Shown: positions 9,070 through 26,819 of the stretch, one piece after another
Numbering within the stretch: the first letter of the stretch is position 1
Layout of the letters: each line of letters opens with the position of its first letter
From: Rhodospirillaceae bacterium
Lineage (GTDB): Bacteria; Pseudomonadota; Alphaproteobacteria; Rhodospirillales; Rhodospirillaceae
Length of the DNA stretch: 64,000 nucleotides
Assembly: GCA_028822445.1 (NCBI GenBank)
Contig: JAPKDQ010000001.1
Span: forward strand, 434,001-498,000
Reading direction: 5' to 3'
Notes under the pieces: model-generated
What the model was told of the DNA's origin: nothing
The model's database searches: none
Seen by the model: only the letters and a program-made list of their open reading frames with translations
Made by a program: the position numbers and the translations under genes

Positions 9070-9633
9070 ATGGAACAAAAACCAGGGGCGCGCGTGGATT
9101 CAAGAGAGTGGCGGTTCAGGGTCTTAGAAAGCAGCGAAAGCGCATCGACTCAGCCAGATTTATCATCGACCAGTGGCCTGCAGACGGCAGAGCTTGTTTT
9201 GCTCATTGGCCTCAGGCTTGAACGGTCGCCGGACACTTTGATAGCGGCGGAACATTGGCAGCGATGTAAGGTTGGGGGCGCTGCTGCTCCGATCAAGTCG
9301 TTACAACAGGTGCTTGAGGTGGCTTGCGATAAGCCTTTCGTGACGAATATCACTGATGAGCCTATTCTTTCAGATGACGAAAAACGCATTCTTTGGGCCG
9401 TATCATCAATTCAGAATGGACGCCCAATCGAAGCGTTTGATATTTTTATCAGTTGTTTGCCTGGTGTTGCCGTCCGTATTGCACTCAATTTTACGCGGAC
9501 CTTAGCAAACACTTTTGTAGGCGCTGGCTTTTATCTGCCAGACAGGTTTTGGTCTGTAAAAGGGCTGTCCGTTCACAGATCACTCCGTGCGCCAGCGAGC
9601 ACGTGCCGTGGGGTTCGCTACAGCTTCCATTAA
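9070..9633 (+). CDS. Hypothetical protein, 187 aa
   Basis: ORF track; sits just downstream of the Fur-box-like element; no family recognised. Confidence 0.5.
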   Translation: MEQKPGARVDSREWRFRVLESSESASTQPDLSSTSGLQTAELVLLIGLRLERSPDTLIAAEHWQRCKVGGAAAPIKSLQQVLEVACDKPFVTNITDEPILSDDEKRILWAVSSIQNGRPIEAFDIFISCLPGVAVRIALNFTRTLANTFVGAGFYLPDRFWSVKGLSVHRSLRAPASTCRGVRYSFH

Positions 9634-10283: not shown

Positions 10284-10751
10284 TCCTTCGTTCAGTTTTC
10301 TGACACCTCTCTATATCCAATTTTTCAATCTGCTGCCTGCCTAACTTACTGCGCAAGCAAATGTGATCTGCGGTGGAGCAGTGCGAGGGGTCAGCCAGTT
10401 GTGTTCTCATGGATCCATATGGAAACTCTGTGCTGATTGATCAGTACGTTTGAAGAAAGGTCTCTATACCCAACCGCCACCTCTCTTAAGTTTGAGGGGG
10501 GGGGGCGCTTGAGGCAATGGGCGCCTGAACCTGCACAACGGGGAATTACTGTGGCGGCACTCGAGCCGTCGGTTGTCCTGCTGGTGTCACTGTTCTAGAC
10601 GTTACGGGCGTTGCTGTACGTGATGCATCTGCCCGGGCTGTTTCTTAGACGAGACGAAGTAATTCTTTAGAGGGTACATGGACCACAGCAGTCTGGGTCG
10701 CCTCGTCTGTGACAAGCCCGCGGCACTTGAGCGCTCGGGGCTGTGGCCATG

Positions 10752-11582
10752 TCAGCCGGCGATCAGCCTTTCGGCAACGGCCGTAATGTCCAAAGAGGCT
10801 TCCGAATTTGGTGAGCGGATTAGAATTGGTGTTTGATTGCGTATAGTTTCACTTACACGTGCGTCGCTACGAATGATTCCTGCAAGCGAAGGTGAAACCT
10901 TCAGAAATGTATGGCAGGCTTTACACAACGTTTTATAGGTTCGCTCGCCTGCGCGCGTTGAATTAGATGCGTTTATGATGACCCGTATGTCCAGGTTCGG
11001 GCGTTTGAGCGCGGTTAGCTTGATAAAAGCATACGCGTCTGCAAGCGATGTTGGTTCATCTCTAGTGACGACTAAAACAGTATCAGCCGCGTGTAAGAGC
11101 TGGCGGACTGAATTTTCAACACCTGCCACAAGATCAAGGATGACCCTGTCGTAGCGCGCCGCCATAAGTAATAAATCTTCGCTAAGGATCTGCAAGCGCG
11201 ATGTGGGAATGTTTGTTAGGCTTCCCGACCCTGAGCGCCCGGCAATAATATCAAACCCGCCTTGTTCGTAGTGCATGGATGCTTGATTGAGAGACAGCTT
11301 ACCGGCGATGACGCTACCAAGATCGTAATGCGGCATAAGGCCCAATTGGATGTCGACATTAGCCAGGCCAAGGTCGCCATCAAACAACAGAACACGTTCA
11401 CCACGCATGGCTAGGGCATGACTTAACGTAATTGAGAAAAACGTTTTTCCAACCCCACCTTTGCCAGAGGCAACGGCAATGATGCGTCCGCGCTTGGCGG
11501 ATACAGCGGGGCGACCTGCAAGAGACAGACCCTGAGGGTCACTTGGACCTTGAGGCGATGGTGGGAAATCGGAATTCATCAA
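10752..11582 (-). CDS. flhG: FlhG/FleN-like MinD-family ATPase
   Basis: Deviant Walker A KGGVGKT; FDGDLGLANVDIQLG; overlaps flhF by the ATGA junction, the canonical flhF-flhG order. Confidence 0.85.
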   Translation of the reverse strand: MMNSDFPPSPQGPSDPQGLSLAGRPAVSAKRGRIIAVASGKGGVGKTFFSITLSHALAMRGERVLLFDGDLGLANVDIQLGLMPHYDLGSVIAGKLSLNQASMHYEQGGFDIIAGRSGSGSLTNIPTSRLQILSEDLLLMAARYDRVILDLVAGVENSVRQLLHAADTVLVVTRDEPTSLADAYAFIKLTALKRPNLDIRVIINASNSTRAGERTYKTLCKACHTFLKVSPSLAGIIRSDARVSETIRNQTPILIRSPNSEASLDITAVAERLIAG

Positions 11583-12601
11583 GACACTTCAGTTCTGGGG
11601 CCTTCGGGTCGTTCTGGCATTTTGTTATCTTCAAAGTGAGCCGGTTGCAGGTCTTTGTCCGGCGGTAAAATCATGCGCGCCATGGAAACAGGATTGATGG
11701 CGCAAAGACCAGTCGCAACGTGAGGGTTGATACTCACCTCTGAAAACATTAACTGTCCGGCGTCGGCGGCTGCGAGTATGGAGCCCAGCCTTCTGGTCAT
11801 ATCAAGTCTGGTGGCTAGGACTCGGGTCGCGCCACAGGCTGAGAATGATTCCCCGATATCAGCGGCCTCGCCAGCGTCGCCGCCTGCCGCCAGAACAAGA
11901 ATTGGTTCGATATCCGCACTGTGCGTTAGTGCCTTAAGGTAATTCATGTCGTGATGGCTAAATGGATTCAGTCCTGGGCTATCGATGAAGACTAAATCAT
12001 AGTTCTCTATCATTGTGGCTACCGCATGAGGGAGGGTATCTGTTCCGCGAACTTGATGAATTTCAACCTCAAGAATTTTTGTGAATGCGGTGAGCTGTTC
12101 AACGGCTCCAGCGCGAATGGTATCTATTGTGATGACGCCAACAGGCCGACCGGCGAGCCGCGCACGTGCTGCGAGTTTGGCGACGGTGATGGTTTTTCCT
12201 GATCCGGGTGGGCCAACCAACATAAAGGGTCGAGGCGCCTTGCGTTCTGGCAATGGAGCAAAATCGAAATGGCCTTCGAGCGCGGCAGCGCAGGCCATGG
12301 TTGGTGAGCCAACCTCTACGGAGCGCGCTGTCATAACCATTTTTTCGATCAAGCGAGCCGGAACGCCGTGGTATGTCAAGGCTTCTCGTACGCCCTCCGA
12401 GAAAGGTGTCGTATTCTCACCTGCTAGCGCACGCGTTATATTCTCATCGCCATCTGGTGCTTCAAGAGCGGCTGTGATGCGCACACCCTGTCCATCTGAA
12501 GACCGCTGGGTCGAGACGATGATTGCATCTTCTCCCAGTTCTTGGCGAACTAAGTTCATGGCCTCTGCCATGTTGGCGGCTGTGTAGGACTTTAGACGCA
12601 T
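11579..12601 (-). CDS. flhF: FlhF-like SRP-type GTPase (flagellar placement)
   Basis: N-terminal MRLKSYTAANMAEAMNLVRQELGEDAIIVSTQ typical of FlhF; G1 GPPGSGKTITVAKLA; SRP-GTPase layout; downstream flhG. Confidence 0.88.
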   Translation of the reverse strand: MRLKSYTAANMAEAMNLVRQELGEDAIIVSTQRSSDGQGVRITAALEAPDGDENITRALAGENTTPFSEGVREALTYHGVPARLIEKMVMTARSVEVGSPTMACAAALEGHFDFAPLPERKAPRPFMLVGPPGSGKTITVAKLAARARLAGRPVGVITIDTIRAGAVEQLTAFTKILEVEIHQVRGTDTLPHAVATMIENYDLVFIDSPGLNPFSHHDMNYLKALTHSADIEPILVLAAGGDAGEAADIGESFSACGATRVLATRLDMTRRLGSILAAADAGQLMFSEVSINPHVATGLCAINPVSMARMILPPDKDLQPAHFEDNKMPERPEGPRTEVS

Positions 12602-13043
12602 CGTTTAAGACCTATCGCGCTCCCCAACGCTTTCCGTGTAGGCACAAGACCCAATTGTAGACCTTATTATATGTCAGGTTTGCCCGACAGTTGTGATTTT
12701 TGACTTCTAGCCTATGTCGTTTTGTGACGTCACGAATGCGACCAGCTAGAATCTATCAATGATGGACCGAATGCACGTGTGAATCATAGGCGATGTCAGC
12801 ATCGCCGGCGTTTCGTGTTGCATGGCGCATGGTTCGAAATTTTGTCGGACGGCTGTGCTCACTTCCTGCAATAGTGATGGCGCCGTGGAGAGTTAATGCT
12901 CATCACCTTAACCCACCAGGGCCCAGTAAGGGCTTGTCGCCTCGAGTTTCGGACGTTAATGAGGCATGCCTTAATAAGGCGTCAATACTTGGCAAGAATT
13001 GCCGGGTTGACCCCAGCCAAGAAGCAACGCCCACTAAGGGATT

Positions 13044-14039
13044 ATGAATAAAGACCAATCATCGGGCTCGAATCAGGCCGTTCTTCTAGATCTTGGAGCC
13101 GTTATTGCGACGGTTACGGTTGATGAGCCACGCGTTTTGCTGGTTGGGCCCGAGGAGCTAAATTCTAGGCCTCGGTTGCCTTCGGGTCCATTTGATCCGG
13201 ATTCTGACCGGACAATGGAAGAAGGGCTTCGCCGCTGGGTCACAGATCAAACTGGACTCAATTTAGGGTTTGTGGAGCAGCTCTATACGTTCGGTGACCG
13301 GTTCCGCGATCCAGATGCCAGAGCTGGCGGCCCGCGCTCGATTTCCGTGGGATACGTGGCGCTTGTGCGGCAGTCAGCGGCGAAACGGCCAGCGGGCTCG
13401 GATTGGTTCGATTGGTACCGCCTGTTTCCTTGGGAAGATTGGCGTAATGGCATACCAGCGATGCTTGAGAACCTTCTTCAGCCGAAGATTTTAAGCTGGA
13501 TAGATGGCGGAGAAAGTTCAAAAGCCCGGAAGGGGCGTCAAGAAAGAGCTGATGTCGCTTTTGGTTTTAGCGATGCGGGTTGGGATGCGGACCGTGTTCT
13601 TGAGCGCTATGAGTTGTTGTATGAAGCTGGACTGGTCGCTGAAACCGTTACTGATGGGCGAATTAAGACCGGATTTGATCAATCTGATGCCCATACCTTG
13701 ACGGGGCTTCCGCTCCATCAGGATCACCGGCGTATTTTAGCTACTGCATTGGGGCGGTTGCGCGGAAAAATTCGCTACAGACCTGTTATTTTTGAAGTTA
13801 TGCCAGCAGACTTTACCCTTTTACAATTGCAAAGGGCAGTGGAGGGGCTGGCTGGTGCGCCGTTACACAAGCAAAATTTCAGACGCCTGGTGGCTGCGGA
13901 GGGCCTCGTTGAGCCTACAGGGCAGTTCTCTTCTGAAACTGGCGGGCGGCCTGCAGAGTTGTTCCGCTTTCGGCCAGGCGTGGTGCGGGAACGGCCAGCG
14001 CCAGGAGTTCGTATGCCTCGCGGAAAGCGCACAAAATAG
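13044..14039 (+). CDS. nadQ: NadQ/NrtR-like regulator (degenerate Nudix domain plus C-terminal winged helix), probable NAD biosynthesis regulator
   Basis: Nudix-like fold with degenerate box (EEGLRRWVTDQTGL in place of REUXEEXGU); C-terminal wHTH resembling NrtR (LQRAVEGLAGAPLHKQNFRRLV..TGGRPAELFRF); immediately upstream of nadA-nadC. Confidence 0.75.
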   Translation: MNKDQSSGSNQAVLLDLGAVIATVTVDEPRVLLVGPEELNSRPRLPSGPFDPDSDRTMEEGLRRWVTDQTGLNLGFVEQLYTFGDRFRDPDARAGGPRSISVGYVALVRQSAAKRPAGSDWFDWYRLFPWEDWRNGIPAMLENLLQPKILSWIDGGESSKARKGRQERADVAFGFSDAGWDADRVLERYELLYEAGLVAETVTDGRIKTGFDQSDAHTLTGLPLHQDHRRILATALGRLRGKIRYRPVIFEVMPADFTLLQLQRAVEGLAGAPLHKQNFRRLVAAEGLVEPTGQFSSETGGRPAELFRFRPGVVRERPAPGVRMPRGKRTK

Positions 14040-14176
14040 AGGCTTATGAACTATTTTCGTTGATTCATAGACGTCGTGGCGCTTTTTACGCGCTAGCGGT
14101 TTCTTGACTTATGGCAGCCTTATGAATAGGTTCAGCTCAACACGAGCATAAGGACGGTGTGGCTATTCGTCCAATA

Positions 14177-14195
14177 TATGCTCAATTTAAGTATA
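14177..14195. promoter_or_regulatory. Putative NadQ operator (imperfect palindrome) upstream of nadA
   Basis: TATGCTC-AATTT-AAGTATA; the right arm matches the reverse complement of the left (GAGCATA) at 5/7; a TATAAT-like -10 follows at 14203-14208. Confidence 0.4.
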
Positions 14196-14217
14196 AGTAT
14201 CATATAATTGTAATAAA

Positions 14218-15258
14218 GTGAGTGGCGGAATGAACGCTTCAAACCTTGCCCCGGTTGACCTGACCTTTAACGAGGAGATCCAGAGCCGAACCGCGCCGTT
14301 GTACGAGCGGGTTAAGAAGGTCATTCCTGAAATAGAGTGGGCTGTGCATGCCCCCAAGATTGACGCGATCAATCGCCTTAAGACGGAGCGTAATGCTGTA
14401 ATTCTTGGCCACAATTACATGACCCCAGAAATTTACCACTGCGTCGCCGATATTGTGGGTGATTCTTTGGCGCTGGCCCGCCATGCCGTTGACACGGATG
14501 CTGACGTTATCGTTATGGCCGGGGTTCACTTCATGGCTGAAACAGCGAAGCTGATTAATCCTAACAAGACGGTTTTAATTCCGGACACGCGGGCAGGGTG
14601 CTCATTGGCGGCATCTATAACTGCTGCAGATGTTCGGCTCATGAAAGAGAAGTATCCCGGTGTGCCCATCGTCACGTACGTCAATACGTCAGCAGATGTT
14701 AAGGCTGAATCTGACATCTGTTGTACGTCCGGCAATGCGGTGGAGATTATTGAATCCCTTGGCGTCGACAAAGTCATCATGCTGCCAGATGAATACCTGG
14801 CGCTGAATGTTGCCCGTGAGACAAAAGTTGAAATAGTGACCTGGAAAGGTCGATGCGAAGTCCATGAACAGTTTACGCCCCAGGATATCCGTGAATTCCG
14901 TGAGAACTATCCCGGTGTTGTTGTCCTCGCTCACCCTGAATGTCCGCCCGATGTTATTGATGAGGCAGACTATTCAGGCTCTACGGCCGGTATGGCCGAC
15001 TACGTCGGTGAGAATAAACCGGGCCGCGTCGTATTGGTTACGGAATGTTCCATGAGTGATAATGTGTCTGCGCAATACCCAGATATTGAGTTCGTAAAGC
15101 CGTGCAACCTGTGTCCGCATATGAAGCGTATCGAGCTCGATAATATTCTAACCGCTCTGCAAAATATGGAGCATGAAGTGACCATTGACCCGGCCATTGC
15201 AGATAATGCACGGCGGTCAGTTGATCGTATGCTCAATGGTTGGAAACCCGGTGAATAA
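14218..15258 (+). CDS. nadA: Quinolinate synthase NadA
   Basis: [71 protein letters not shown]; start GTG 14218 or ATG 14230. Confidence 0.96.
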
Positions 15259-15294
15259 CTGGGGCATTGGCGCCTTAGCTATCAGGATCAGTCT

Positions 15295-16152
15295 ATGACA
15301 GCACCCGTTTTTCCGCTGCCTGTCTCTTTGCTTGATGGCATCGTTGCCTATGCTCTTCAAGAAGACTTGGGTACAGCCGGCGATATCACATCCAGCATAA
15401 CCGTCTCCGAGGATGCTCAGGCCGTCGCGAACGTCGTGGTGCGTCGTCCAGGAACGGTCTCTGGGTTGCCGGTTGCTGTCCAAGCCTTTAGGTCGGTGGA
15501 CCCTACTCTGTGTCTTAAAACCCTCTGTGCTGATGGAAGCCAGGCAGTACCGGGTGATGTTATTCTAAGTGTATCAGGGCGAGCTCGTTCGGTGTTAACG
15601 GCTGAGCGGACGGTTCTAAATTTTCTCGGGCACCTTTCCGGTGTCGCAACTGAAACCCGGACGCTTGTTGATGCGGTAGCCCATACCAAGGTTCGTATTT
15701 GCTGTACGCGGAAGACAACGCCTGGTCTGCGGGTCCTTGAAAAATATGCGGTTCGCTGTGGCGGAGGTTTTAACCACCGGTTTGGTTTGGGTGATGGCCT
15801 ATTGATAAAAGACAATCACATCATTGCAGCTCAAGGTATTGCCGCGGCGGTTGTTGAGGCGAAGGCTAAGGTCGGTCACATGGTTAAGATTGAAGTTGAG
15901 GTTGATCGCATTGATCAAATTGAACCTGCGTTATCTGGTGGCGCTGACGTGATTATGTTGGATAATATGGATCCACCGACAATGGCGGAGGCCGTCACAC
16001 TTATTGCCCGACGTGCCATCGTCGAAGCATCAGGGTCTATTACCAAGGATACTGTTAAAGCTGTGGCTGAAAGTGGAGTTGATGTCATCTCGGTCGGATG
16101 GATTACGCACTCTGCGCCAACCCTTGATGTTGGGCTCGATTTCCAACATTAG
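15295..16152 (+). CDS. nadC: Nicotinate-nucleotide pyrophosphorylase (carboxylating) NadC
   Basis: ALQEDLGTAGDITS, ERTVLNFLGHLSGVAT, CTRKTTPGLRVLEKYAVRCGGGFNHRFGLGDGLLIKDNH are diagnostic. Confidence 0.96.
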   Translation: MTAPVFPLPVSLLDGIVAYALQEDLGTAGDITSSITVSEDAQAVANVVVRRPGTVSGLPVAVQAFRSVDPTLCLKTLCADGSQAVPGDVILSVSGRARSVLTAERTVLNFLGHLSGVATETRTLVDAVAHTKVRICCTRKTTPGLRVLEKYAVRCGGGFNHRFGLGDGLLIKDNHIIAAQGIAAAVVEAKAKVGHMVKIEVEVDRIDQIEPALSGGADVIMLDNMDPPTMAEAVTLIARRAIVEASGSITKDTVKAVAESGVDVISVGWITHSAPTLDVGLDFQH

Positions 16153-16173
16153 CCATTTGTATTGAGAATATAA

Positions 16174-16209
16174 AAAGTCCCGAAGACACTGTCCTCAGGG
16201 CTTTCTAAT
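16174..16209 (+). terminator. Putative intrinsic terminator after nadC
   Basis: AAAGTCCCGAAGACA-CT-GTCCTCAGGGCTTT imperfect hairpin directly after the nadC stop. Confidence 0.5.
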
Positions 16210-16655
16210 TAGGTTATGGGTTTATTTTTAACGATTAACTCTAAGCAATTCGTCGAGCATATTATCTGACTTCGTGGCAACCTTGGCGGCACGCCTTGCT
16301 TTTGTTTGCGCCATTAGCAGTCATGGTGAATGCTGCATTTTCTGATAACCTAGATTTAGTCTCTGCCGTGGCGCCCTATCTGTGTCAGAATGGTTGCAAG
16401 CTAAATGCGTCTCATTGGAACAATGACAACGCATTCGGCTATCGATTCTAGACCGTATTGATGCTCTTTCTTTTTTCCAAAGAACGCCTTGGATGAACTT
16501 GCACTTGATCGCGTATAACGCCGCCAAAAGCGCAGCCTATATGGTGCGGTTGTCACACTTTTATACGGCTAAGAAAAACGGGTGTGCGAACTTGAGGTGG
16601 GTCACGCTACTCGAAGTGACCATATCGCTCAACTTGAAGACACGCTGATAGCCTT

Positions 16656-18419
16656 TCAGATACTCCTGTTTAGTTGATTTTCGAAAGCCTGCCAGATCAG
16701 TTCCCCAACTTCACCGCCGATGAAGTCAGACCGGCCAAGTCCTGCGCGGTCTGTCATTTCTTCGACGGCTTGTGATATTTCGTCTCGAAGAGACGTATCG
16801 CTGCTGAGCCTCACAGCGACTGCGACGTAGTCATCACGTGATTCCGTGATCATCACGCCTAGGTCTATCTCCCTGAGAAGGGCAGCGCTTTGACGACATC
16901 GAGCAGTTTCCCCTGACAGTACGACCGGGGGGCACCCGCATAGAAGGGGATCAATGATTGAAACAGCACCAGAGTAAGGGAAGCTGTCTAGATAGATATC
17001 AGCTAGTTTAAGTAATCCAAGTATTGGCGCACGCGACGACTGAGGTTCCAAGAGATGCAGTCGACCTATATCAATCCCGGCGGCAGTAAACCGGTCGTGA
17101 AGGAATTTTACAAAGCTTTTTCTTTGCGGATAATGCGCCGCCCAGGTTGGGTTGAATGGATAAAGGACCATGTGTGAGTCTTTCACTGCTCCAAGGATAT
17201 CTGTCCAAGCGTTCAGGAGGTCTGGGCCTATTTTGAACGCATTCGCGCCGGAGACGAACACTATTCCGGTGTCTGGCAAGCCTAGATCGCTTCGCGTAAG
17301 CGATTGGGGTTCTACCGCTCCATCAATAAAGTGATAGTGGTTAGAGGACCCTTCTACTAAGGCTAATTGTTCCGTGTAATCGGCCTCGGCGTCCTCTGGT
17401 TCATTCAGAACCCCATTAATGTACAGGTCGACTGTATCGAAACCCGACGTCACAGGAGACGTGTGCATGACGACCTGCAATCTAGCCAACCTTTGAGCCA
17501 TAAGTTGGGTCCAGGGGAATGTGCAGATATTTGTAATGTTGGCCGCACAAATTAGGACGTCCAAGTCTTCCCTGATGATCATTGCTGCTGCTTCTGCAAT
17601 GTCGTCTGCCGGCAGAGAGATAAGTGCGTCCGCTAAATCATCCAGACCTCGGCTTAGAATGTCGGCCGCAGCATCTGGAACGAAGGCTGTGATGTTAAAG
17701 TGTTTTTTTGATAAACCGATTAGGTGGCCCCTGATCGCAGCCATTTCTGATTGAGCGCTTGGACTTAAGATGCCGATTCTTAATTGTCCCGGCAATTGGC
17801 TTGGCCAAACAGGAACGTGCTCATGGAGAAGGCCGGCGATTTTGAGATGCAACTGAATGAGTTCGGCGCGTTTCACAATGATATCGTGCAGCGATACGTC
17901 CTCGCAATACACTGGGGTCAAAATAAATCCATCAAGGAAACCATTTAAAACGTTGCGTTGAAAATTGATTTCATCGATCACACGAGCAGCCTTATGAATT
18001 TCCTCAGTGGCCTTTGATAGATGCGTTAACGCTTGGCGGCGCGCCCCAACTTTCTCGAAAAAATGGGGTAGGCCGAGAAGAGCGCGAACCATAGTTGCCA
18101 CGATTTCTTTCGGCACATCGATGAGTTCAAAAGAGCGTTCTATTCGGTATGAATACATAAATAGGGATAGAGCTAGGTACGCACATGCTTTGCGAACGGG
18201 GTCGTGTTCCATGGTTAACATGCGATGGCAACGTTCGGCGACGGCTTGATCGAATTTGCTCATCGGAAGCTGACGTAAGTTCGTGTTGTAGATGGCGGCA
18301 AGCGCGTCGCCTGTAGGCGCGTTGCTTAGTGCTCCAATCTTATCGATGCGTGCCTCAAGGCATATTTCGGCCAACTCTAGACGCAAGTCGCGTAATTTAA
18401 CTTCGGTTTCTGAATCCAT
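16656..18419 (-). CDS. SPINDLY/OGT-like glycosyltransferase (COG3914-type C-terminal domain)
   Basis: LRIGILSPSAQSEMAAIRGHLIGL..; TSGFDTVDLYINGVLNEPEDAEADYTEQLALVEG; YLDSFPYSGAVSIIDPLLCGCPPVVLSGETARCRQSAALLREIDLG, typical of the OGT/SPY catalytic region. Confidence 0.75.
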   Translation of the reverse strand: MDSETEVKLRDLRLELAEICLEARIDKIGALSNAPTGDALAAIYNTNLRQLPMSKFDQAVAERCHRMLTMEHDPVRKACAYLALSLFMYSYRIERSFELIDVPKEIVATMVRALLGLPHFFEKVGARRQALTHLSKATEEIHKAARVIDEINFQRNVLNGFLDGFILTPVYCEDVSLHDIIVKRAELIQLHLKIAGLLHEHVPVWPSQLPGQLRIGILSPSAQSEMAAIRGHLIGLSKKHFNITAFVPDAAADILSRGLDDLADALISLPADDIAEAAAMIIREDLDVLICAANITNICTFPWTQLMAQRLARLQVVMHTSPVTSGFDTVDLYINGVLNEPEDAEADYTEQLALVEGSSNHYHFIDGAVEPQSLTRSDLGLPDTGIVFVSGANAFKIGPDLLNAWTDILGAVKDSHMVLYPFNPTWAAHYPQRKSFVKFLHDRFTAAGIDIGRLHLLEPQSSRAPILGLLKLADIYLDSFPYSGAVSIIDPLLCGCPPVVLSGETARCRQSAALLREIDLGVMITESRDDYVAVAVRLSSDTSLRDEISQAVEEMTDRAGLGRSDFIGGEVGELIWQAFENQLNRSI

Positions 18420-18421
18420 TC

Positions 18422-19702
18422 TTAAGGGGGCGGAGTTAGTCGCGAGGGGTTTGTGATCAAGTCTATAATGGCGCCCGTCGTTAAGGTGAGGCTTTCCTCT
18501 CCGTCACTAAAAATGCCGTTCGCAGCGCTGGCTAGGGTCTCTCGAGCGGTTTTGTCTTCGAGTAGAGTGGCGACAGTGCGAGTTAGGCCTTTTGGACCGC
18601 AAACCTGGAGGGCCATTTTGTGAGCAGTCATTTTGTCGGCGATATTTTGGAAGTTTTCCATATCCGGGCCAAACAGTATTGCACAGTTGAAGTGGCTGGG
18701 CTCAACAGGGTTCTGTCCGCCAGTTGAGGCAAGGCTCTTACCCACGAATACGATGGGGCAGACCGAGAACATTGTTCCCAGTTCACCTATGGTATCAACA
18801 ATGTAAATATCCGTTGAGCTGTTGATCGGCTGGCCAAGACTGCGGGTTGCAGTTTCCAGGCCGGAAGCTTTCCCAAGCCCAGCTATCTTCTTACCCCGGC
18901 TTGGGTGGCGTGGAGCGATAATGGTCAAGAGATCAGGAGTCTGGTTGGCTATCTCTTTGTGAGTTGCGAATGCAATTCCCTCTTCTCCTGGATGCGTACT
19001 TGCTGCAAGCCAAACAGGTCGCTTATCTATCATCGCCCGGAGGTAGTCCGCATCGGGCAGGCTTACTGGAAGTGCGGGCGCCGCTAACTTGATGTTTCCG
19101 GTGACCCTTACAGATCTAGCACCTATTGCTTTGTACCTGGCTGCGTGTTCCTCCGTCTGGGCAAGAACCAATGTGAGTGAAGCCATGATTCTTTGGGCAG
19201 TGACGGGAAACCGGCGCCACCCTCGAACGGTGCTTTCTGACAGTCGAGCGTTAACTATAACGGTTGGAATCTCTTGATCTCTTAGAGCAAAGAGTGTGTT
19301 GGGCCAAAGCTCAGATTCCATACGTATGGCTACGTTGGGCTGCCACAGCGATAAAAAACTGCCTACCCAGGCGCGACGATCCCACGGCGCAAATTGATGT
19401 GTCGCTCGGTCAGGTAGTCTCTCGGCAAGAACGCGGGCGCTTGTGTTGGTTCCTGTCGTTATCAAAATACTCAGTTTTGGGTTTTCTAGAAGTCGCTCAA
19501 TGAGCGGTAATAACGCGAGAGCCTCGCCAACACTGGCTGCATGACACCAGATAAGTTGGCCGGTCGGTCTTATTTTTGAGGTTAGTCCGCGCCGTTCTCC
19601 AAGCCGTGAGTAATCCTCTTTTCCCCGCAATGCCCTGGCGCATAGCAATACACGCAGCGGCCAGGCCGCGATGAACGTTGCAAATCTATATAGAGAAATC
19701 AT
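18422..19702 (-). CDS. waaA: 3-deoxy-D-manno-octulosonic acid (Kdo) transferase
   Basis: WCHAASVGEALALLPLIERLL, SELWPNTLFALRDQEIPTVIVNARLSESTVRGWRR, GGQNPVEPSHFNCAILFGPDMENF. Confidence 0.95.
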   Translation of the reverse strand: MISLYRFATFIAAWPLRVLLCARALRGKEDYSRLGERRGLTSKIRPTGQLIWCHAASVGEALALLPLIERLLENPKLSILITTGTNTSARVLAERLPDRATHQFAPWDRRAWVGSFLSLWQPNVAIRMESELWPNTLFALRDQEIPTVIVNARLSESTVRGWRRFPVTAQRIMASLTLVLAQTEEHAARYKAIGARSVRVTGNIKLAAPALPVSLPDADYLRAMIDKRPVWLAASTHPGEEGIAFATHKEIANQTPDLLTIIAPRHPSRGKKIAGLGKASGLETATRSLGQPINSSTDIYIVDTIGELGTMFSVCPIVFVGKSLASTGGQNPVEPSHFNCAILFGPDMENFQNIADKMTAHKMALQVCGPKGLTRTVATLLEDKTARETLASAANGIFSDGEESLTLTTGAIIDLITNPSRLTPPP

Positions 19703-20057
19703 AGACCGTCACACAGCCGTAGAAACATCGTCCGGGGCAGATTATCGCTCCGGGCTGGGGGATAGTATGACGTGAAAGATAGGTTTTGGTTAGGCTTTTT
19801 TATGGAAGGTTTGTCCTGGCCCTCACAAGTTGACAGTATGCTTAAAGTCATTGATCTGGCGTCATAGGCTTGCGCTCAAACCTGAGCGCACTAATTTTGC
19901 CAAGTTGTTCGCTTTACTGTTGTAAACCCTTTGGCGAACTTATGCCCACTCAATTTTATTTCATGTGCGCTGGGTTTAGTCGCTTGTCTTAACTATCAGG
20001 ACACAACCGTGAGCTGGATCGAAGCATGTTAATGCAGGGCGGTCTATTATTATGAGC

Positions 20058-20471
20058 ATGAAACCAACAGTATAAAAATCCAAATATGTTAAGGGTCTGG
20101 AATGTCCTAAAGCGCTCTGGTTTCATCATCATTGTAAAGACCTAAGGCCAGAGATTAGCGCTGGAACCCAAGCTGGAGAAAAGGCCGTCCGGCTAAGAGC
20201 GTAGTTCCTCATTTATAAAGATGGAGAGCTTTTAAAGGACATCAAAAAGAATGAAGTCCAGAAAACGCATGGCTATCATACCGGCGCCAAAAACGCGGTT
20301 TTCGAATTTAAGGAGGTGGCAGCCAGCGTTGACATACATGGTTTTCTGGCAGGGGAGGACAAAAAACAGCGTTTTAGCCATAGCCCCCTTAGCAAGGTTG
20401 GATCGCTAAGGTGGATAATTTCTAAAACAATGGCGTATATCCGCGCTGTATTGCTATTCTTGGGCTTGTAA
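20058..20471 (+). pseudogene. Decayed DUF2779-like (Cas4/PD-(D/E)XK-associated) gene
   Basis: One reading frame translates MKPTV*KSKYVKGLECPKALWFHHHCKDLRPEISAGTQAGEKAVRLRA*FLIYKDGELLKDIKKNEVQ...TGAKNAVFEFKEVAASVDIHGFLAGED...; the N-terminus resembles DUF2779 proteins (SKSKYxxGLQCPKxLW...xxATQ); in-frame stops at 20073 and about 20202. Confidence 0.5.
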
Positions 20472-20562
20472 CGACCCTGATGAGTCGTTTCTCTATTGCG
20501 GCTTAAAAACTGTATCCCTATAGTCCCGCGCGATTGATACAGACACCCATGGTTAGGGGCCT

Positions 20563-20979
20563 ATGACTGTTACTCTTCCGCCAGATTACAAACCGACCAA
20601 GAAAGAGGGTTTTATGGATCCTCGTCAGCAGGAGTATTTCCGCCAAAAGTTGATCTCATGGCGCAATGAGCTGATGAAAGAAACAGAGGAAACCTTAGAG
20701 AGTCTTCAGGATGGTGGCCTGCAAGAGCCAGACCTTTCTGATCGCGCAACTGCAGAGATGGAACGGTCCCTTGAGCTTAGAACTCGGGACCGTGCGCGAA
20801 AGCTGGTCTCTAAGATCGATTTAGCTCTCAAACGTCTTGAAGATGGTACCTACGGGTATTGTGATGAAACAGATGAGCCGATCGGCCTAAAGCGCCTCGA
20901 AGCGCGTCCAATCGCGACCATGAGCCTGGAGGCTCAGGAACAGCACGAACGGATGGAAAAAACTCATAGGTCTGATTAA
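20563..20979 (+). CDS. dksA: DksA family RNA polymerase-binding factor (alphaproteobacterial type, incomplete zinc finger)
   Basis: MDPRQQEYFRQKLISWRNELMKE...DLSDRATAEMERSLELRTRDRARKLVSKIDLALKRLEDGTYGYCDETDEPIGLKRLEARPIATMSLEAQEQHE. Confidence 0.93.
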   Translation: MTVTLPPDYKPTKKEGFMDPRQQEYFRQKLISWRNELMKETEETLESLQDGGLQEPDLSDRATAEMERSLELRTRDRARKLVSKIDLALKRLEDGTYGYCDETDEPIGLKRLEARPIATMSLEAQEQHERMEKTHRSD

Positions 20980-21004
20980 GAACTTAACTCAATAAATTTT
21001 TTTA

Positions 21005-21040
21005 CCGGGCGCACCCTGCGGGGAGCACCCGTTTTAGTTT
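21005..21040 (+). terminator. Putative terminator after dksA
   Basis: CCGGGCGCACCCTGCGGGGAGCACCCGTTTTAGTTT, nested hairpin followed by a T-rich tract. Confidence 0.55.
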
Positions 21041-21083
21041 AAGATTACAAGTCCCAAGCTCTGTGCTCCGGTTCGGATAGGGA

Positions 21084-22586
21084 TCAGTCCGATAATTCGA
21101 GAGTGTGGTATTGAATGAACCCATAGGGTGCTTCGTACGTTGTCACGGTGTTGCTGATGCCATCGACGTGGACGTTTTCGTAGAGGTAGATACCCGGTGG
21201 ATCGTCATGCAAATCTCTTAATATGCTTCTCACGATTTGGCGGCGGGCATCCGGGTTGAATTCCCGATCTGCGGCGAGGGTACGGTCAGCAATACCCTGG
21301 CGACAAATCCAGGGCCAAGGCCATAGACAAGAGTGGTAGCGCATTGAGGCGAGGGGATCGAGCGAGGGCAGGGAGCCATAATTCATATTGAAAGCTAAGC
21401 CATCCCAGGGCGCGCCGTATACACTTTGAACCTGTTTGGTGAATGGAACCCTGATTAACTCGACATCAACGCCGACGTGTTTTAGGTCCTGTGCGACCTG
21501 GATATAAACGGATTCTTCTTCTGCACTAGATGCAGCGACTTGAAACGGAATTGAAAACCCATCCGGGTACCCTGCTTCCGTCAAGAGCGCCCGTGCTTTG
21601 GCGGGGTCGTAAGGGTATGGCGCAAGTGTGTCGTCGAACCCAAAAGTACCGTGCGCTGCAACCTGGCTCGCTGGATACATAATCCCTTGAAGCAACGCTT
21701 CGACAATAACGTCAATATTTACCGCGTAGTTCAGTGCCTTCCGTACGCGCTTATCGTTGAGTGGGCTTTCTTGTTCAGTCACGAATTGCCACATCTGCAC
21801 CGAAGCGCGTGTTCTATAATCGACGCGAGCGCCGGCCCGTTCAACCTGAAATATGTCTGTTGCGCCGAGGTCGAAGGCGATGTCTACAGCGTCCGAAATA
21901 AGAGCTTGTATACGAGCGGTTGAATCGGGGGCGGCGGTGTACTCAATACGGTCGACTTGTGCTGGCCGCCAGGCATTTGGATTTTTAATGAGGCTAGCGC
22001 GGCCTGTCTTCCAGCGTTCCACCATAAATGGTCCAGTGCCGTGCGGTTCTAGAGCGAAGGTCCCAGGTCCGACATCTGCAAAGTATTGTGGAGGGAGAAT
22101 GCGAACGCCAGCGAGGCGGCCAGGGATCATGCTGTCAGGTTGAGTTGTCTTAACTTCTAGTGTTAAGCGGTTGCGCGCAGAGGCACTTGCGACCGTGCGC
22201 AATTCACGGTAGGCCGAAAATGTTCGTCCTTCGTCAGACAGTAAATAGTTAATTGTCGCGGCCGCCGCGGCGGCGTTAAGGGGCTCGCCGTTGGAGAAGA
22301 GAATGTTGTCTCTTAGTTCGAATATCCAGGTTGTCTCGTTCTCATGGTGCCATGACGTTGCTAGCAAGGGCCCTAAAGCGCCGTCTTCGCCGATGGCTGT
22401 CAGCGGCTCAAACAGAGCGGGCCAGATGAGAAGCGGAGGCCAACCGCCGGACGTGTGAGGGTTGGCGTTACCTGGCGGCATGGACCGCAGAGCCATCCGA
22501 AGCGTATCCGCTTGTGCATTGAGCGCTAACATTCCTGTGAGGAATATGGTGGTTAGCAGAGTTAAAATGTTAGGTGGCTGTCTCAT
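21084..22586 (-). CDS. ABC transporter substrate-binding protein, peptide/nickel family (SBP_bac_5)
   Basis: Signal peptide; WPALFEPLTAIGEDGALGPLLATSWHHENETTWIFELRDNILFSNGEPLNAAA; VRKALNYAVNIDVIVEALLQG; no permease or ATPase genes adjacent. Confidence 0.88.
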   Translation of the reverse strand: MRQPPNILTLLTTIFLTGMLALNAQADTLRMALRSMPPGNANPHTSGGWPPLLIWPALFEPLTAIGEDGALGPLLATSWHHENETTWIFELRDNILFSNGEPLNAAAAAATINYLLSDEGRTFSAYRELRTVASASARNRLTLEVKTTQPDSMIPGRLAGVRILPPQYFADVGPGTFALEPHGTGPFMVERWKTGRASLIKNPNAWRPAQVDRIEYTAAPDSTARIQALISDAVDIAFDLGATDIFQVERAGARVDYRTRASVQMWQFVTEQESPLNDKRVRKALNYAVNIDVIVEALLQGIMYPASQVAAHGTFGFDDTLAPYPYDPAKARALLTEAGYPDGFSIPFQVAASSAEEESVYIQVAQDLKHVGVDVELIRVPFTKQVQSVYGAPWDGLAFNMNYGSLPSLDPLASMRYHSCLWPWPWICRQGIADRTLAADREFNPDARRQIVRSILRDLHDDPPGIYLYENVHVDGISNTVTTYEAPYGFIQYHTLELSD

Positions 22587-23099
22587 AATTAAAAGGTGTC
22601 CGCTGTGTTGGCAATCTTAGGGTTTATAATGAGTATATGGCTCCAATTAAGTTCGAGGGCTGGATGGTTGAAGGGTCTGTCCTGAAGTTAATGATAGCAG
22701 TTATGATTTCTTGTTTAGCGTCTTTACTTTTGTTCCCTCAAGCATCGCCCTGAAGTTTATTAACCAATGTGTCCGTTCTGCTCTTATCGCCGCAGGACCC
22801 CTCGTGCAGACCAATGCGCACCTCACTTTGGCAGCGAGCCTAGCGATGTCCTCTTCAAAGAGAAGGTTGTTGAATAATAACAATGCCTTCTGGAAACTTT
22901 TTACAAAGGAAAGAAATGCATAGCTCATACAGTTAAGGGGTTTCCTCGCGTTGGGTCTTTAGCCAGGGCTCAGGTTGGGGGTTTAACCCTTTATTATGGG
23001 CTTTCACCTACATTGTAATTTGGATGAGGCAGGCACTGGCTCAGCGTTACTCTACTGGGTGATGTTTGGCGGCCAGCAAGAGATAGAAAAGGCGGACGG

Positions 23100-23729
23100 A
23101 TGATGGAAATGCCACCTGACACGATTATGGACTTAGCAATCATTCTACTTCTCGTTCCGACAATCGTCTATGCAGTCATTCTCAATCGTCGTTTATCAGC
23201 ACTCCGAAATTCTAGAGAAGAGCTCGCAAAAGTTATCGGCAGCTTTAATGAAGCGACCATGCGGGCTGAAGTGGGTATTCCAAAATTAAAGAAAGCGACG
23301 CTTGATGCGAATAGTGCTTTGCAAGAGCGCTTCGAGAAAGTGCACGCGTTGCGAGACGACCTTGCATTTATGATTGAGCGCGCTGAAGAAATAGCTAACC
23401 GGCTAGATGGGTCTATAAAATTGGGGCGAGCGACTAAACCTTCTCAGGCGCCTGCGTCGTCATTTGTGCCTATGCGTCCAGCGTCCCAACGCCCGGTGCT
23501 TTCTGTTGCTCAACCGCCAATTCCCTCTCAAACGCTCGCGGGAGCTTCTAATGTGGATCATGACCTGGTGACAGGTGCGGCTGGCACTGAAGCGAAGGTC
23601 AGTGGCCAACGCGAGGCAGCCCCGGCATTTGGCACAGTGCGCCCAATCGGTGCGGAGGTTTTACCCGTTGATGGAGAACGTTCTGAAGCCGAAAGAGAGC
23701 TTCTTAAGGCCCTGCGATCTAAGCGTTAA
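23100..23729 (+). CDS. DUF6468 family protein (family usually found in alphaproteobacterial flagellar clusters)
   Basis: N-terminal TM followed by LNRRLSALRNSREELAKVIGSFNEATMRAEVGIPKLKKATLDANSALQERFEKVHALRDDLAFMIERAEEIANRLDGSI. Confidence 0.7.
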   Translation: MMEMPPDTIMDLAIILLLVPTIVYAVILNRRLSALRNSREELAKVIGSFNEATMRAEVGIPKLKKATLDANSALQERFEKVHALRDDLAFMIERAEEIANRLDGSIKLGRATKPSQAPASSFVPMRPASQRPVLSVAQPPIPSQTLAGASNVDHDLVTGAAGTEAKVSGQREAAPAFGTVRPIGAEVLPVDGERSEAERELLKALRSKR

Positions 23730-23759
23730 ATCAGCACCAAATTATGGTATCTTGAACTC

Positions 23760-24080
23760 GTGATGACTAAGAATAAAAGATATCCTAAGCCTACAGAGAT
23801 TAAGGGCGAACGCGAATCTGGTTCTCCTCGTAAGAGATCAGTTAAAACGCCTTCATGGGGCCGGGCCTCGGTTATAAGAGTGTTGCCGCTATTGATTGTT
23901 GCAGCCGCATTCGTGCTTGGCTTCCGCGTCACTGCCGTCGTTCAAGATATGCGTTCGATGGTCGCGTTAGTCAATGCCGAATAATTGACAGTATTTATTC
24001 AAGAATATGGCGGCGCACGCGTTGACGAAAAAATTTCTAAACTGCAGTAGGAGCTAACGGTCCTGATTGCTGAAGCCGAT
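23760..24080 (+). pseudogene. MotE-like (flagellar chaperone) relic
   Basis: Same frame throughout: TM segment ASVIRVLPLLIVAAAFVLGFRVTAVVQDM..., TAA at 23982, then ARVDEKISKLQ, TAG at about 24048, then ELTVLIAEAD; resembles the MotE N-terminal TM plus (R/A)xDEKIxxLQ coiled coil with nonsense codons. Confidence 0.5.
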
Positions 24081-24118
24081 TTCCCCACACAAGTTTTTTA
24101 TCCGGAGGCAGTATCGTC

Positions 24119-24322
24119 GTGCGCGATACGTCTTACTACGCAATTGCTTTAATTTACGATATGGAAGCGCAAGACGGCGGTGGTAAGGGTCCTCTGCTAG
24201 CCCATGCACAGTATGCTGTAGTTGAGGTTGATCAAGAGATTCTACCAGAGCACTATAAGGCCGTTGCCGAGATTGTCGGTTACGTAATGCAAGTCAACGG
24301 TAAGGGCCAGGCTGATAGCTAA
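24119..24322 (+). pseudogene. FlhB C-terminal domain relic, internally deleted
   Basis: SYYAIALIYDMEAQDGGGKG...VEVDQEILPEHYKAVAEIVGYVMQVNGK resembles the FlhB C-terminus (NPTHYAIALKYD.......VEIDQEIPPEHYKAVAEIIGYVMRLKGK) lacking the intervening ~35 residues and the whole membrane domain; lies directly before cckA. Confidence 0.6.
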
Positions 24323-24386
24323 TTCAAAGCCTCTGTTTGCACTAGTCCTAAGCGCGTTAGCGATTTTAGGGCTAGCGCTTAATCTC

Positions 24387-26819
24387 GTGTTCGACGGTGT
24401 GCCGTGGTTATGGGCTGTGGCTGCAGTCTCATTTCTATGGCTCTCCGCCATCGTGCTGACCTGGTCCGCCTTGTCTCAGCCACCCTCTATCAAGCAACGG
24501 CTAGACTCCGTTACTGCGATTTTTGAATCTGAACCTGGGCCAAGATTTGTAACTGACGATAGCGGCAGCACCATTTATTCAAATGTCTCTGGCTCTGATT
24601 GGCTTAAGGGTGCCTCACCCCTGGTCCGGTTGGAGACGCTGGCGGCGCGTGAGTATTACGGCGGCGAGTTGGTTAAACGGTTAAGATTAGCGGCCGAAGC
24701 GCGTCTCACAGATCAAATTGAAGTTCAATTGCACGGTGATATGCCAGAGCCGGATTGGTTTCAGATTGCTATTCGTCCTCTAGAGTCTCTGCCCGATTTT
24801 CTACTATGGTCATTGGAAGACATAACGGCCCGAAAAGCGATCAACGACATCTTGGGTCAGGAGCGCCAAGACCTGGCTGACTTTATGGACTTTATCCCGA
24901 CGGGCATCTATTCCGTCGATGTTGACGGGGCGTTCCACTATGCCAATGAGCGGTTTGCTCAATGGCTGGGCCGAAGCCCAGATGATTTCATCGGCTTGTC
25001 TTTAGACGACGTGCTCGCAGGGACAATTCGCCCGGAGCTTGACGGTGAATGGCACGGCCATGTGAGGTTCCTGTCGATGCAGGGCGAAATGGTTGAGACG
25101 CTGGTATTCCAAAGCACGTACGACGCTGGTGGTGTGATGCGAACACGAACGCTCGTTATGCGTGACGTGAACTCCGAAACCGGGAAGAATGATGGGTCGC
25201 ATCAAAGCGGATTTCGCGCGTTGTTCGATTCTGCTCCAGTCGCCATTGCTATCACCGAGCCAGATGGGTTCGTAACGGACTGTAATCATGCCTTTGCACG
25301 GTTGGTAAACCAAGGTCGTGACGCGGTCATAGGAAGCGGCTTATCCGAATTTTTAATTGAAGGCGACCGACGTGCGCTTCGGGGTGAATTGGATAGGGTC
25401 GTCTCTGGAGTGTCCAAAAGTGCGCAAGTCGATATTCGCCTAGCCAGAGGAGGGGTCGGTCGTGATGCTGTTCAGGCCTCTGTTTTTCTTGGCCCGATGG
25501 CCGGCCCTGTTTCTGCTACAGGCGAGATTGAAGGCGCGGTTGTTCATGTCATCGATACTACTGAGCAAAAGAGTCTCGAGGTTCAGTTTGCACAAGCTCA
25601 GAAAATGCAAGCCATGGGGCAACTCGCTGGGGGCGTTGCTCATGACTTTAATAACCTTTTGACGGCTATGATCGGTTTTTGTGACTTGTTGTTGCAACGG
25701 CACGCCGCAGGCGACCCTTCTTTCGCTGATATCATGCAAATTAAACAAAATTCCAATCGTGCGGCCAATTTAGTACGTCAGCTCTTGGCGTTTTCTCGTA
25801 AGCAGCCCCTCCAACCTAAAGAACTCAATTGCACAGACCATCTAGCAGAGTTGTCTCATTTGCTAACCCGGCTCATTGGTGAGTCTATTGAATACAAGCT
25901 TATCCACGGACGAGACTTGGGTGCAGTCCGCGTGGATCCAGGGCAGTTTGACCAAATTATTATTAACCTTGCCGTTAATGCGCGCGATGCGATGTCGGGC
26001 GGCGGTACGTTGACTATAGCAACAGATACAAAGGTATTTGAGCGGCCGACCCAGATTGGGGCAGACCAGGTGCCTGCAGGTCGGTACGTTACTATTTCAG
26101 TGACTGATACGGGGAAGGGTATTGCTCGGGAGGACATCGGCCGAATTTTCGAACCGTTCTTCTCGACAAAACAGGAGACACCTGGAGCAGGCACTGGATT
26201 GGGACTAGCGACGGTATATGGAATCGTACGTCAGACCGGTGGATTCATATTGGTTGATTCGTCGCCGGGTGACGGGGCTAGATTCATTATCTACCTGCCT
26301 CGTTTAGAGCCCGAAGGAGATGAGCTAGAGCAGAGTGATGTAGCCGTAACAGAACTTAAACAGGCGGGCTCTTTAGATAGCGGGGACCCAGGCGCACTGG
26401 CTGGTAAAATTGCTAAAAGTCCGAGCAAAGGGGGCTTATCAGGGAGTGGCACTATCCTGCTCGTCGAGGATGAAGATGCCGTGCGTGTGTTCGCTGCCCG
26501 TGCACTTAAGAACAAAGGGTACAACATCTTAGAGGCCCGGACCGGAGAGCAGGCAATAGAAATGCTGTATGACGCCGAGAGTTTGGACCTTTTGATCACA
26601 GATATGATGATGCCCGGTATGGATGGCGGCACTCTCGCCCGATTTGTAAAGGTGGAGCGTCCAGAAGTGCAGGTGATATTAATTTCGGGTTATTCTGAAG
26701 AAGTCGCAAGAGGCGACGTCCTCGATAGCCCTGATATTCATTTCCTGCCGAAGCCATTTAGCTTGGGACAGCTAGCAAGTAAGGTAAAAGATGTTCTGGC
26801 TCTGCCGGTCGATTCTTAG
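24387..26819 (+). CDS. cckA: CckA-like hybrid histidine kinase (PAS, HisKA, HATPase, receiver)
   Basis: AQKMQAMGQLAGGVAHDFNNLLTAMIGFCDLLLQRH; N/G boxes; C-terminal receiver ILLVEDEDAVRVFAARAL...LITDMMMPGMDG. Confidence 0.92.
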   Translation: MFDGVPWLWAVAAVSFLWLSAIVLTWSALSQPPSIKQRLDSVTAIFESEPGPRFVTDDSGSTIYSNVSGSDWLKGASPLVRLETLAAREYYGGELVKRLRLAAEARLTDQIEVQLHGDMPEPDWFQIAIRPLESLPDFLLWSLEDITARKAINDILGQERQDLADFMDFIPTGIYSVDVDGAFHYANERFAQWLGRSPDDFIGLSLDDVLAGTIRPELDGEWHGHVRFLSMQGEMVETLVFQSTYDAGGVMRTRTLVMRDVNSETGKNDGSHQSGFRALFDSAPVAIAITEPDGFVTDCNHAFARLVNQGRDAVIGSGLSEFLIEGDRRALRGELDRVVSGVSKSAQVDIRLARGGVGRDAVQASVFLGPMAGPVSATGEIEGAVVHVIDTTEQKSLEVQFAQAQKMQAMGQLAGGVAHDFNNLLTAMIGFCDLLLQRHAAGDPSFADIMQIKQNSNRAANLVRQLLAFSRKQPLQPKELNCTDHLAELSHLLTRLIGESIEYKLIHGRDLGAVRVDPGQFDQIIINLAVNARDAMSGGGTLTIATDTKVFERPTQIGADQVPAGRYVTISVTDTGKGIAREDIGRIFEPFFSTKQETPGAGTGLGLATVYGIVRQTGGFILVDSSPGDGARFIIYLPRLEPEGDELEQSDVAVTELKQAGSLDSGDPGALAGKIAKSPSKGGLSGSGTILLVEDEDAVRVFAARALKNKGYNILEARTGEQAIEMLYDAESLDLLITDMMMPGMDGGTLARFVKVERPEVQVILISGYSEEVARGDVLDSPDIHFLPKPFSLGQLASKVKDVLALPVDS

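Follow-up and report, generated by a model that had tools for sequence, protein, structure and literature searches.

Here, we describe a window, i.e., the whole analyzed stretch of 64,000 nucleotides (contig JAPKDQ010000001.1, positions 434,001 to 498,000), from the genome of a marine Rhodospirillaceae bacterium, designated G000 (2.85 Mb, 98.9% complete, a 41-contig draft), in which flhF, flhG, and a gene for a DUF6468 protein lie intact among the remains of flagellar genes. G000 was compared with the flagellated congeners G001 and G002, with the flagellated G007, and with G003, G004, G005, G006, and G009, which together with G000 make up six aflagellate genomes of the genus and a sister genus. 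A wider survey covered 225 genomes of the order. The locus comprises the following features, with positions counted along the window.

10752-11582, minus strand: flhG, encoding a MinD/FleN-like ATPase; open frame; matches FleN structures at E 1e-40.
11579-12601, minus strand: flhF, encoding a signal recognition particle-type GTPase; open frame; TIGR03499 at E 2.6e-45.
12680-12946, minus strand: relic of the FlhA C terminus, abutting flhF, with four in-frame stops in 89 codons.
23100-23729, plus strand: DUF6468 gene, probable pflI, intact and fast-evolving here; PF20072 at E 7.8e-21.
23763-24090, plus strand: motE relic with premature stops; comparison with G004 MotE at E 8e-36.
24104-24319, plus strand: relic of the FlhB C terminus with a 25-residue internal deletion; 48% to G003 FlhB at E 7e-18.
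20563-20979, plus strand: dksA, an intact, non-flagellar bystander; TIGR02420 at E 2.3e-42.
24387-26819, plus strand: cckA, intact and non-flagellar; NF046020 at E 2e-185.
10516-10747, minus strand: faint relics of a gene of unknown function of 705 amino acids; tblastn with G004 open reading frames, E 1e-4 to 2e-7.
16284-16653, plus strand: frameshifted relic of an unknown gene of 217 amino acids from the congeners' cluster; matched by tblastn as three pieces that switch frame, E 1.7e-29.

The FlhA relic (56-58% to residues 631-725 of congener FlhA, E 4e-21 to 5e-24) had escaped a first-pass annotation of this DNA, in which no flhA was visible. The same annotation had correctly listed flhF, flhG, dksA, DUF6468, and cckA as present and open, and the FlhB relic that it named is real, with matches to Bac_export_2 (PF01312, E 8e-7) and TIGR00328 (E 5.5e-8) and an alignment to congener FlhB. 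Its motE relic was borne out by 73% identity over 89 residues with MotE from the sister genome G004, which is intact there (MotE residues 1-89 at 23763-24029), but a hidden Markov model search gave no match and the relic is recognizable by orthologue comparison only. The orthologue matches of the FlhA, MotE, and FlhB relics have E values of 1e-13 to 1e-42, and their order and strand are those of the congener cluster, which argues against chance resemblance.

From 5.2 to 28.3 kb the window is fully syntenic with G001, in which the corresponding stretch, as determined by comparing the translated congener cluster with the window, extends over about 95 kb and holds a flagellar cluster of about 90 kb at the matching locus. 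This cluster encodes FlhG, FlhF, FlhA, FlbD, MotA, FliN, FliH, FliG, FliF, FlgE, FlgD, and FliK; four flagellins, FlbT, FlaF, FlgK, a rod-binding protein, FlgI, FliX, FlgA, FlgG, and FlgF; and FliL, FliM, DUF6468, MotE, a CheY-like protein, two MotB-like proteins, FliP, FlgC, FliE, FliR, and FlhB. Genes were named via Pfam and searches for flagellin, FliF, and FlhA, while FliG, FlgF, FlhF, and FlhG were assigned by homology and position. From this list the window holds flhG, flhF, and DUF6468 as survivors, and the fragments of FlhA, MotE, and FlhB. The 705-amino-acid gene sits after flhG in flagellated congeners and is full length in G001, G002, and G003; the 217-amino-acid gene is intact in G001 and G003. 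Where the first-pass annotation had counted two broken genes separating DUF6468 from cckA, G001 has about 15 genes. Of the genes that it listed, dksA and cckA are intact and non-flagellar. Synteny with the flagellated sisters thus reveals a lost cluster and confirms that the window contains the collapsed remains of about 90 kb of flagellar genes, lost via deletion and pseudogenization.

Whole-genome searches of G000 found neither FlhA nor FliF nor flagellin, and the same three proteins were not found in G006 and G009. In G005, FlhA is a 37-residue trace only and FliF and flagellin were not found; in G003, FlhA is a fragment interrupted by a stop, and FliF and flagellin were not found; in G004, FliF is cut to 255 amino acids and FlhA and flagellin were not found. 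The congeners G001 and G002 possess all three. A flagellar set elsewhere in the genome, against which the first-pass annotation had weighed its interpretation, was looked for, and for FlhA, FliF, and flagellin its presence in G000 is refuted. The second condition that it had named, relics without a match in hidden Markov model searches, did not overturn it either, since the FlhB relic matches FlhB models. That a flagellum is encoded elsewhere after all, or that its absence is an assembly artefact, has hardly any probability: every genome is a draft, with metagenome assemblies in the case of the named relatives and 41 contigs in that of G000, yet the searches were negative or met broken genes in six genomes, of which five reach a completeness of 98% or more, and the relics themselves lie at the locus on long contigs. 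G016, which has no FlhA, was set aside as an aflagellate genome because FliF and flagellin are present. With relics of FlhA, MotE, and FlhB still readable and no FlhA, FliF, or flagellin genome-wide, the earlier interpretation of a lineage that has lost its flagella is overall supported.

Selection on the surviving genes was estimated with our own maximum-likelihood branch model, in which the G000 branch was contrasted with the background. Synonymous sites are near-saturated, so that omega (dN/dS) is imprecise on long branches, and between-species recombination is present and may blur branch estimates. On the G000 branch omega is raised for flhF (0.16 versus 0.045 in the background; twice the log-likelihood difference, 2dlnL, 12.1), flhG (0.22 versus 0.037; 2dlnL 32.2), and DUF6468 (0.33 versus 0.071; 2dlnL 15.1). 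It is nonetheless below 1 for flhF (2dlnL 8.1) and flhG (2dlnL 8.9), and not clearly so for DUF6468 (2dlnL 2.2). The relics serve as internal control: relative to G003, the proportion of nonsynonymous differences (pN) amounts to 0.228 in the FlhA relic and 0.270 in the pooled relics, as compared to 0.056 in flhF and 0.099 in flhG (Fisher tests of relic versus gene, p 1e-28 and 9e-15, respectively), and functional FlhA is equally constrained (pN 0.010 between G002 and G003). Stops interrupt 5 of 243 relic codons and none of the approximately 825 codons of flhF, flhG, and DUF6468, for which neutral simulation predicts about 6 stops (p 0.1) or 12 stops (p 0.2). These data show that flhF and flhG stayed under purifying selection after the flagellum was lost, with a constraint reduced about 4-6-fold relative to flagellated kin. 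The first-pass annotation had portrayed all three genes as kept; by dN/dS, flhF and flhG are constrained after the loss and DUF6468 is near neutral in G000. Because the flagellum is deleted and the pair is still selected, the conserving force cannot be flagellar.

The flagellum was lost more than once. In a phylogeny built from up to eleven non-flagellar genes, the flagellated G001 and G002 are interleaved among the aflagellates, the relative placement of G001, G009, G002, and G003 being only partly resolved. A single loss is rejected (approximately unbiased test, p 1.7e-64), two losses are rejected as well (p 2.6e-5), and three or more fit, so that at least three independent losses occurred. 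This count assumes that flagella were never regained, an assumption supported by the shared locus and the relics. Remnants of FlhA comprise residues 631-725 in G000, 340-726 in G003, and 1-99 in G005 and G006, and are missing from G004 and G009; deletion ends that differ between genomes also fit separate loss events. By relic stop density (2.06 stops per 100 residual codons versus 0-0.92 in the others), G000 represents the oldest loss of the nine examined, which qualifies the 'recently' of the first-pass annotation. G005 and G006 (L051/L052 versus L053/L054) form a mosaic, in which tracts at 1-3% divergence, including the flagellar relics, alternate with tracts at 8-14%, and the deletion allele may accordingly have spread between the two species by recombination. 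Owing to these recombination tracts (relics p 0.025 versus flhF p 0.083), the two genomes were rejected as a clean post-loss pair.

Of the approximately 45 flagellar genes in G001, just three, flhG, flhF, and DUF6468, have remained intact in every one of the six aflagellates. Beyond this group, G169, G187, and G189 from other genera of the same family have no intact FlhA and no FliF and have kept flhF and flhG; DUF6468 is kept in G169 and G187.

FlhF places and FlhG counts polar flagella, and FlhF brings FliF to the pole. FlhF of G000 matches SRP54 (E 3.2e-25) and TIGR03499 (155.6 bits, below the cut-off of 174.15) and has kept its GTPase motifs GPPGSGKT, DSPG, and TRLD; the GTPase motifs are present in every aflagellate aligned. 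FlhG is MinD-like, is encoded next to flhF, has FleN/FlhG as closest structures, and has kept the deviant Walker A motif KGGVGKT in G000. The DQAxxLR motif at the N terminus of FlhG stimulates FlhF. In our alignment it was seen neither in FlhG of G000 nor in that of flagellated kin, and its lack in the latter marks it as a subgroup trait and no sign of decay.

The DUF6468 protein (PF20072, 74.4 bits versus a curated cut-off of 26.9) has one transmembrane helix, a coiled coil, and a conserved C-terminal motif. Its gene is found in kin in the order fliL-fliM-DUF6468-motE, and the position between fliL/fliM and motE is the slot of pflI (PMC10954123), whose product places the flagellum in Caulobacter and is recruited by TipF (PMC7987155, PMC11236974). 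PF20072 matches 1 of 14 control genomes, namely Caulobacter, as a match at the level of the genome; a DUF6468 search of plasmid records for an annotated pflI gave no match. Gene slot, bitopic coiled-coil layout, and the match in Caulobacter suggest that DUF6468 is probably PflI, which would make all three survivors flagellum-positioning genes. As a general rule, DUF6468 was rejected as a hidden FlhF receptor, i.e., an alphaproteobacterial FipA, as many relatives have DUF6468 and FlhA and no FlhF, and as Caulobacter has DUF6468 without FlhF.

The first-pass annotation had raised a repurposing of the retained genes as a possibility, and it is such a repurposing that we infer here. Chemoreceptor arrays were rejected as a client because no CheW was found in the genus, in which chemotaxis is absent. 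Retractile pili were rejected as well: a trio of type IV pilus-type ATPases carried by the flagellated G001, G002, and G007 is missing from G009 and from the aflagellate members of the genus (G000, G003-G006), and was thus lost along with flagella. As these three ATPases occur in flagellated genomes only, the loss of swimming appears to have been accompanied by that of twitching. The pair could also position another polar machine, such as a secretion apparatus, a stalk or adhesin, or a pilus, instead of acting on the pole or the division site. ParA/MinD ATPases often position cargo (PMC10241942), and one GspE/PilB-type ATPase is left in G000 and most of its kin; however, the genus has no CheW, its aflagellates have lost the retractile-pilus ATPases, and G169 keeps flhF-flhG without any ATPase of that family, which leaves such a machine an improbable client.

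MinC was found in none of the 17 family genomes tested, with no search made for MipZ, the alphaproteobacterial division regulator. In Campylobacter jejuni, which is without Min, minicells are formed by mutants in either flhF or flhG, and FlhG in excess acts even when there is no MS ring (PMC3228812); in Halothiobacillus deletion of flhG disturbs the divisome (PMC10241942). With other partners excluded or unlikely, no MinC, and these two precedents, a residual role at the pole or in division is favoured, and on balance we lean towards the reading that flhF-flhG, and at first pflI, retain such a role, weakly constrained and independent of a flagellum. That the pair is selected is observed; the step from there to a pole or division role is one we infer. 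In this model, FlhF, a membrane-bound GTPase at the pole, and FlhG, a MinD-like ATPase, would keep a job that needs no flagellum, and PflI, a membrane coiled-coil protein, would help them at first. The likeliest job would be to mark the pole, or to keep division off the poles in Min-less cells. Contacts with flagellar partners would then drift freely, by which constraint would drop, and PflI and FlhG would weaken first and FlhF last.

Several observations weigh against a retained function of this kind. G000 and G005 both show clearly relaxed constraint (in G000, 2dlnL 12-32 across the three genes), and DUF6468/PflI of G000 is not separable from neutral (pN test versus G004, p 0.13). FlhG of G000 has changed at 12 otherwise invariant sites, and FlhG of G009 carries K34N, by which the first lysine of KGGVGKT is lost. 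Relaxation rises with relic decay (Spearman 0.73 for flhF; 0.59, not significant, for flhG). G189 has lost DUF6468, and G190, G014, and G032 retain none of the positioning genes; retention of these genes after flagellum loss is common, not permanent. The Caulobacter control is also without MinC, and in C. jejuni the effect on division depends on FliF, FliM, and FliN as well, except when FlhG is overproduced (PMC3228812).

Relaxation that grows with relic decay is what slow decay predicts, and slow decay is the main rival to a flagellum-independent role. By this account flhF, flhG, and pflI are functionless, were spared by where the large deletions stopped, and will go too. Besides the drop of constraint with the age of loss, the changes at invariant sites of FlhG and PflI, the later losses in G189, G190, G014, and G032, and the location of flhF-flhG at one edge of the cluster agree with it. 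We still consider it rather unlikely, as the FlhA relic adjoining flhF decayed and flhF and flhG did not, and as approximately 825 codons acquired no stop where neutral simulation expects about 6-12. PflI, moreover, is not at a cluster edge, its neighbors being FliM, which is gone, and MotE, which is broken, and the same three genes survived at least three independent losses. Retaining a flagellum-independent role as the preferred reading, we tentatively raise a wider possibility, namely that FlhF-FlhG, with PflI at first, could be the pole or division-site module of a Min-less family, exposed by repeated deletion of the flagellum, and that the loss order PflI, FlhG, FlhF could show which component carries the function.

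The pair shares gene content, order, and domains with the FlhF/FlhG system of Vibrio, Pseudomonas, Shewanella, and Campylobacter, and flagellated kin have flhA-flhF-flhG; unlike in that system, the window organism has no flagellum and its FlhG is without the DQAxxLR described there (PMC11236974). DUF6468 resembles PflI of Caulobacter crescentus in gene slot, single transmembrane helix, and coiled coil. The likeness is one of slot and topology. DUF6468 here co-occurs with FlhF, which is absent from Caulobacter. Division-site control in C. jejuni (PMC3228812) likewise concerns a Min-less bacterium, and the role of FlhF/FlhG beyond the flagellum known from C. jejuni would have a counterpart here; FliF, FliM, and FliN, however, belong to the C. 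jejuni pathway and are lost in the window organism. Reductive flagellar loss in Actinobacteria, as outlined in PMC10746217, is similar in its lineage-wise loss and gene degeneration, and differs, as far as that outline goes, in that here, across repeated losses, one and the same set of positioning genes persists after the machine is gone.

Judging from titles and abstract openings, none of the open-access papers found in our literature searches dealt with the retention of flhF/flhG in bacteria without flagella. FlhF and FlhG are known from work on their service to the flagellum; aflagellate lineages in which the pair is still under selection amount to natural flagellum-null strains for asking what it recognizes at the pole and whether it has a further role. 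The clade, in which flagellated and aflagellate species are interleaved, moreover presents a graded series of stages in losing a large molecular machine.

Some further features of the locus deserve mention. Homology to CckA (tblastn, query residues 1-836 of G001 CckA) spans 24312-26807 and thus extends upstream of the annotated start; at 24312, the TTG start of the congener's overlapping flhB-cckA reads CTG in the window. The cckA start may have changed through the decay of flhB, in which case translation would begin at GTG at 24387 and omit the first hydrophobic helix. Adjoining the flagellar locus at 9070-9633 is an open frame of 187 amino acids without a family match, which shares 78% identity with its G004 counterpart and also occurs in G001, G005, and G006. 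A family-41 glycosyltransferase at 16656-18419, next to a waaA-like gene, is the sole copy left, and the G001 flagellar cluster holds several related paralogues, which possibly serve flagellin glycosylation.

Finally, in G092, a genome without FlhA from another family of the order, FliF residues 4-95 are fused in frame to FlhF from residue 21 (L093:10377-11576, minus strand). The fusion includes the FliF transmembrane helix, has an intact P-loop, and adjoins flhG; apparently, a deletion has merged this positioning GTPase with its own client. We count it as a further case of FlhF retention in support of a flagellum-independent role.

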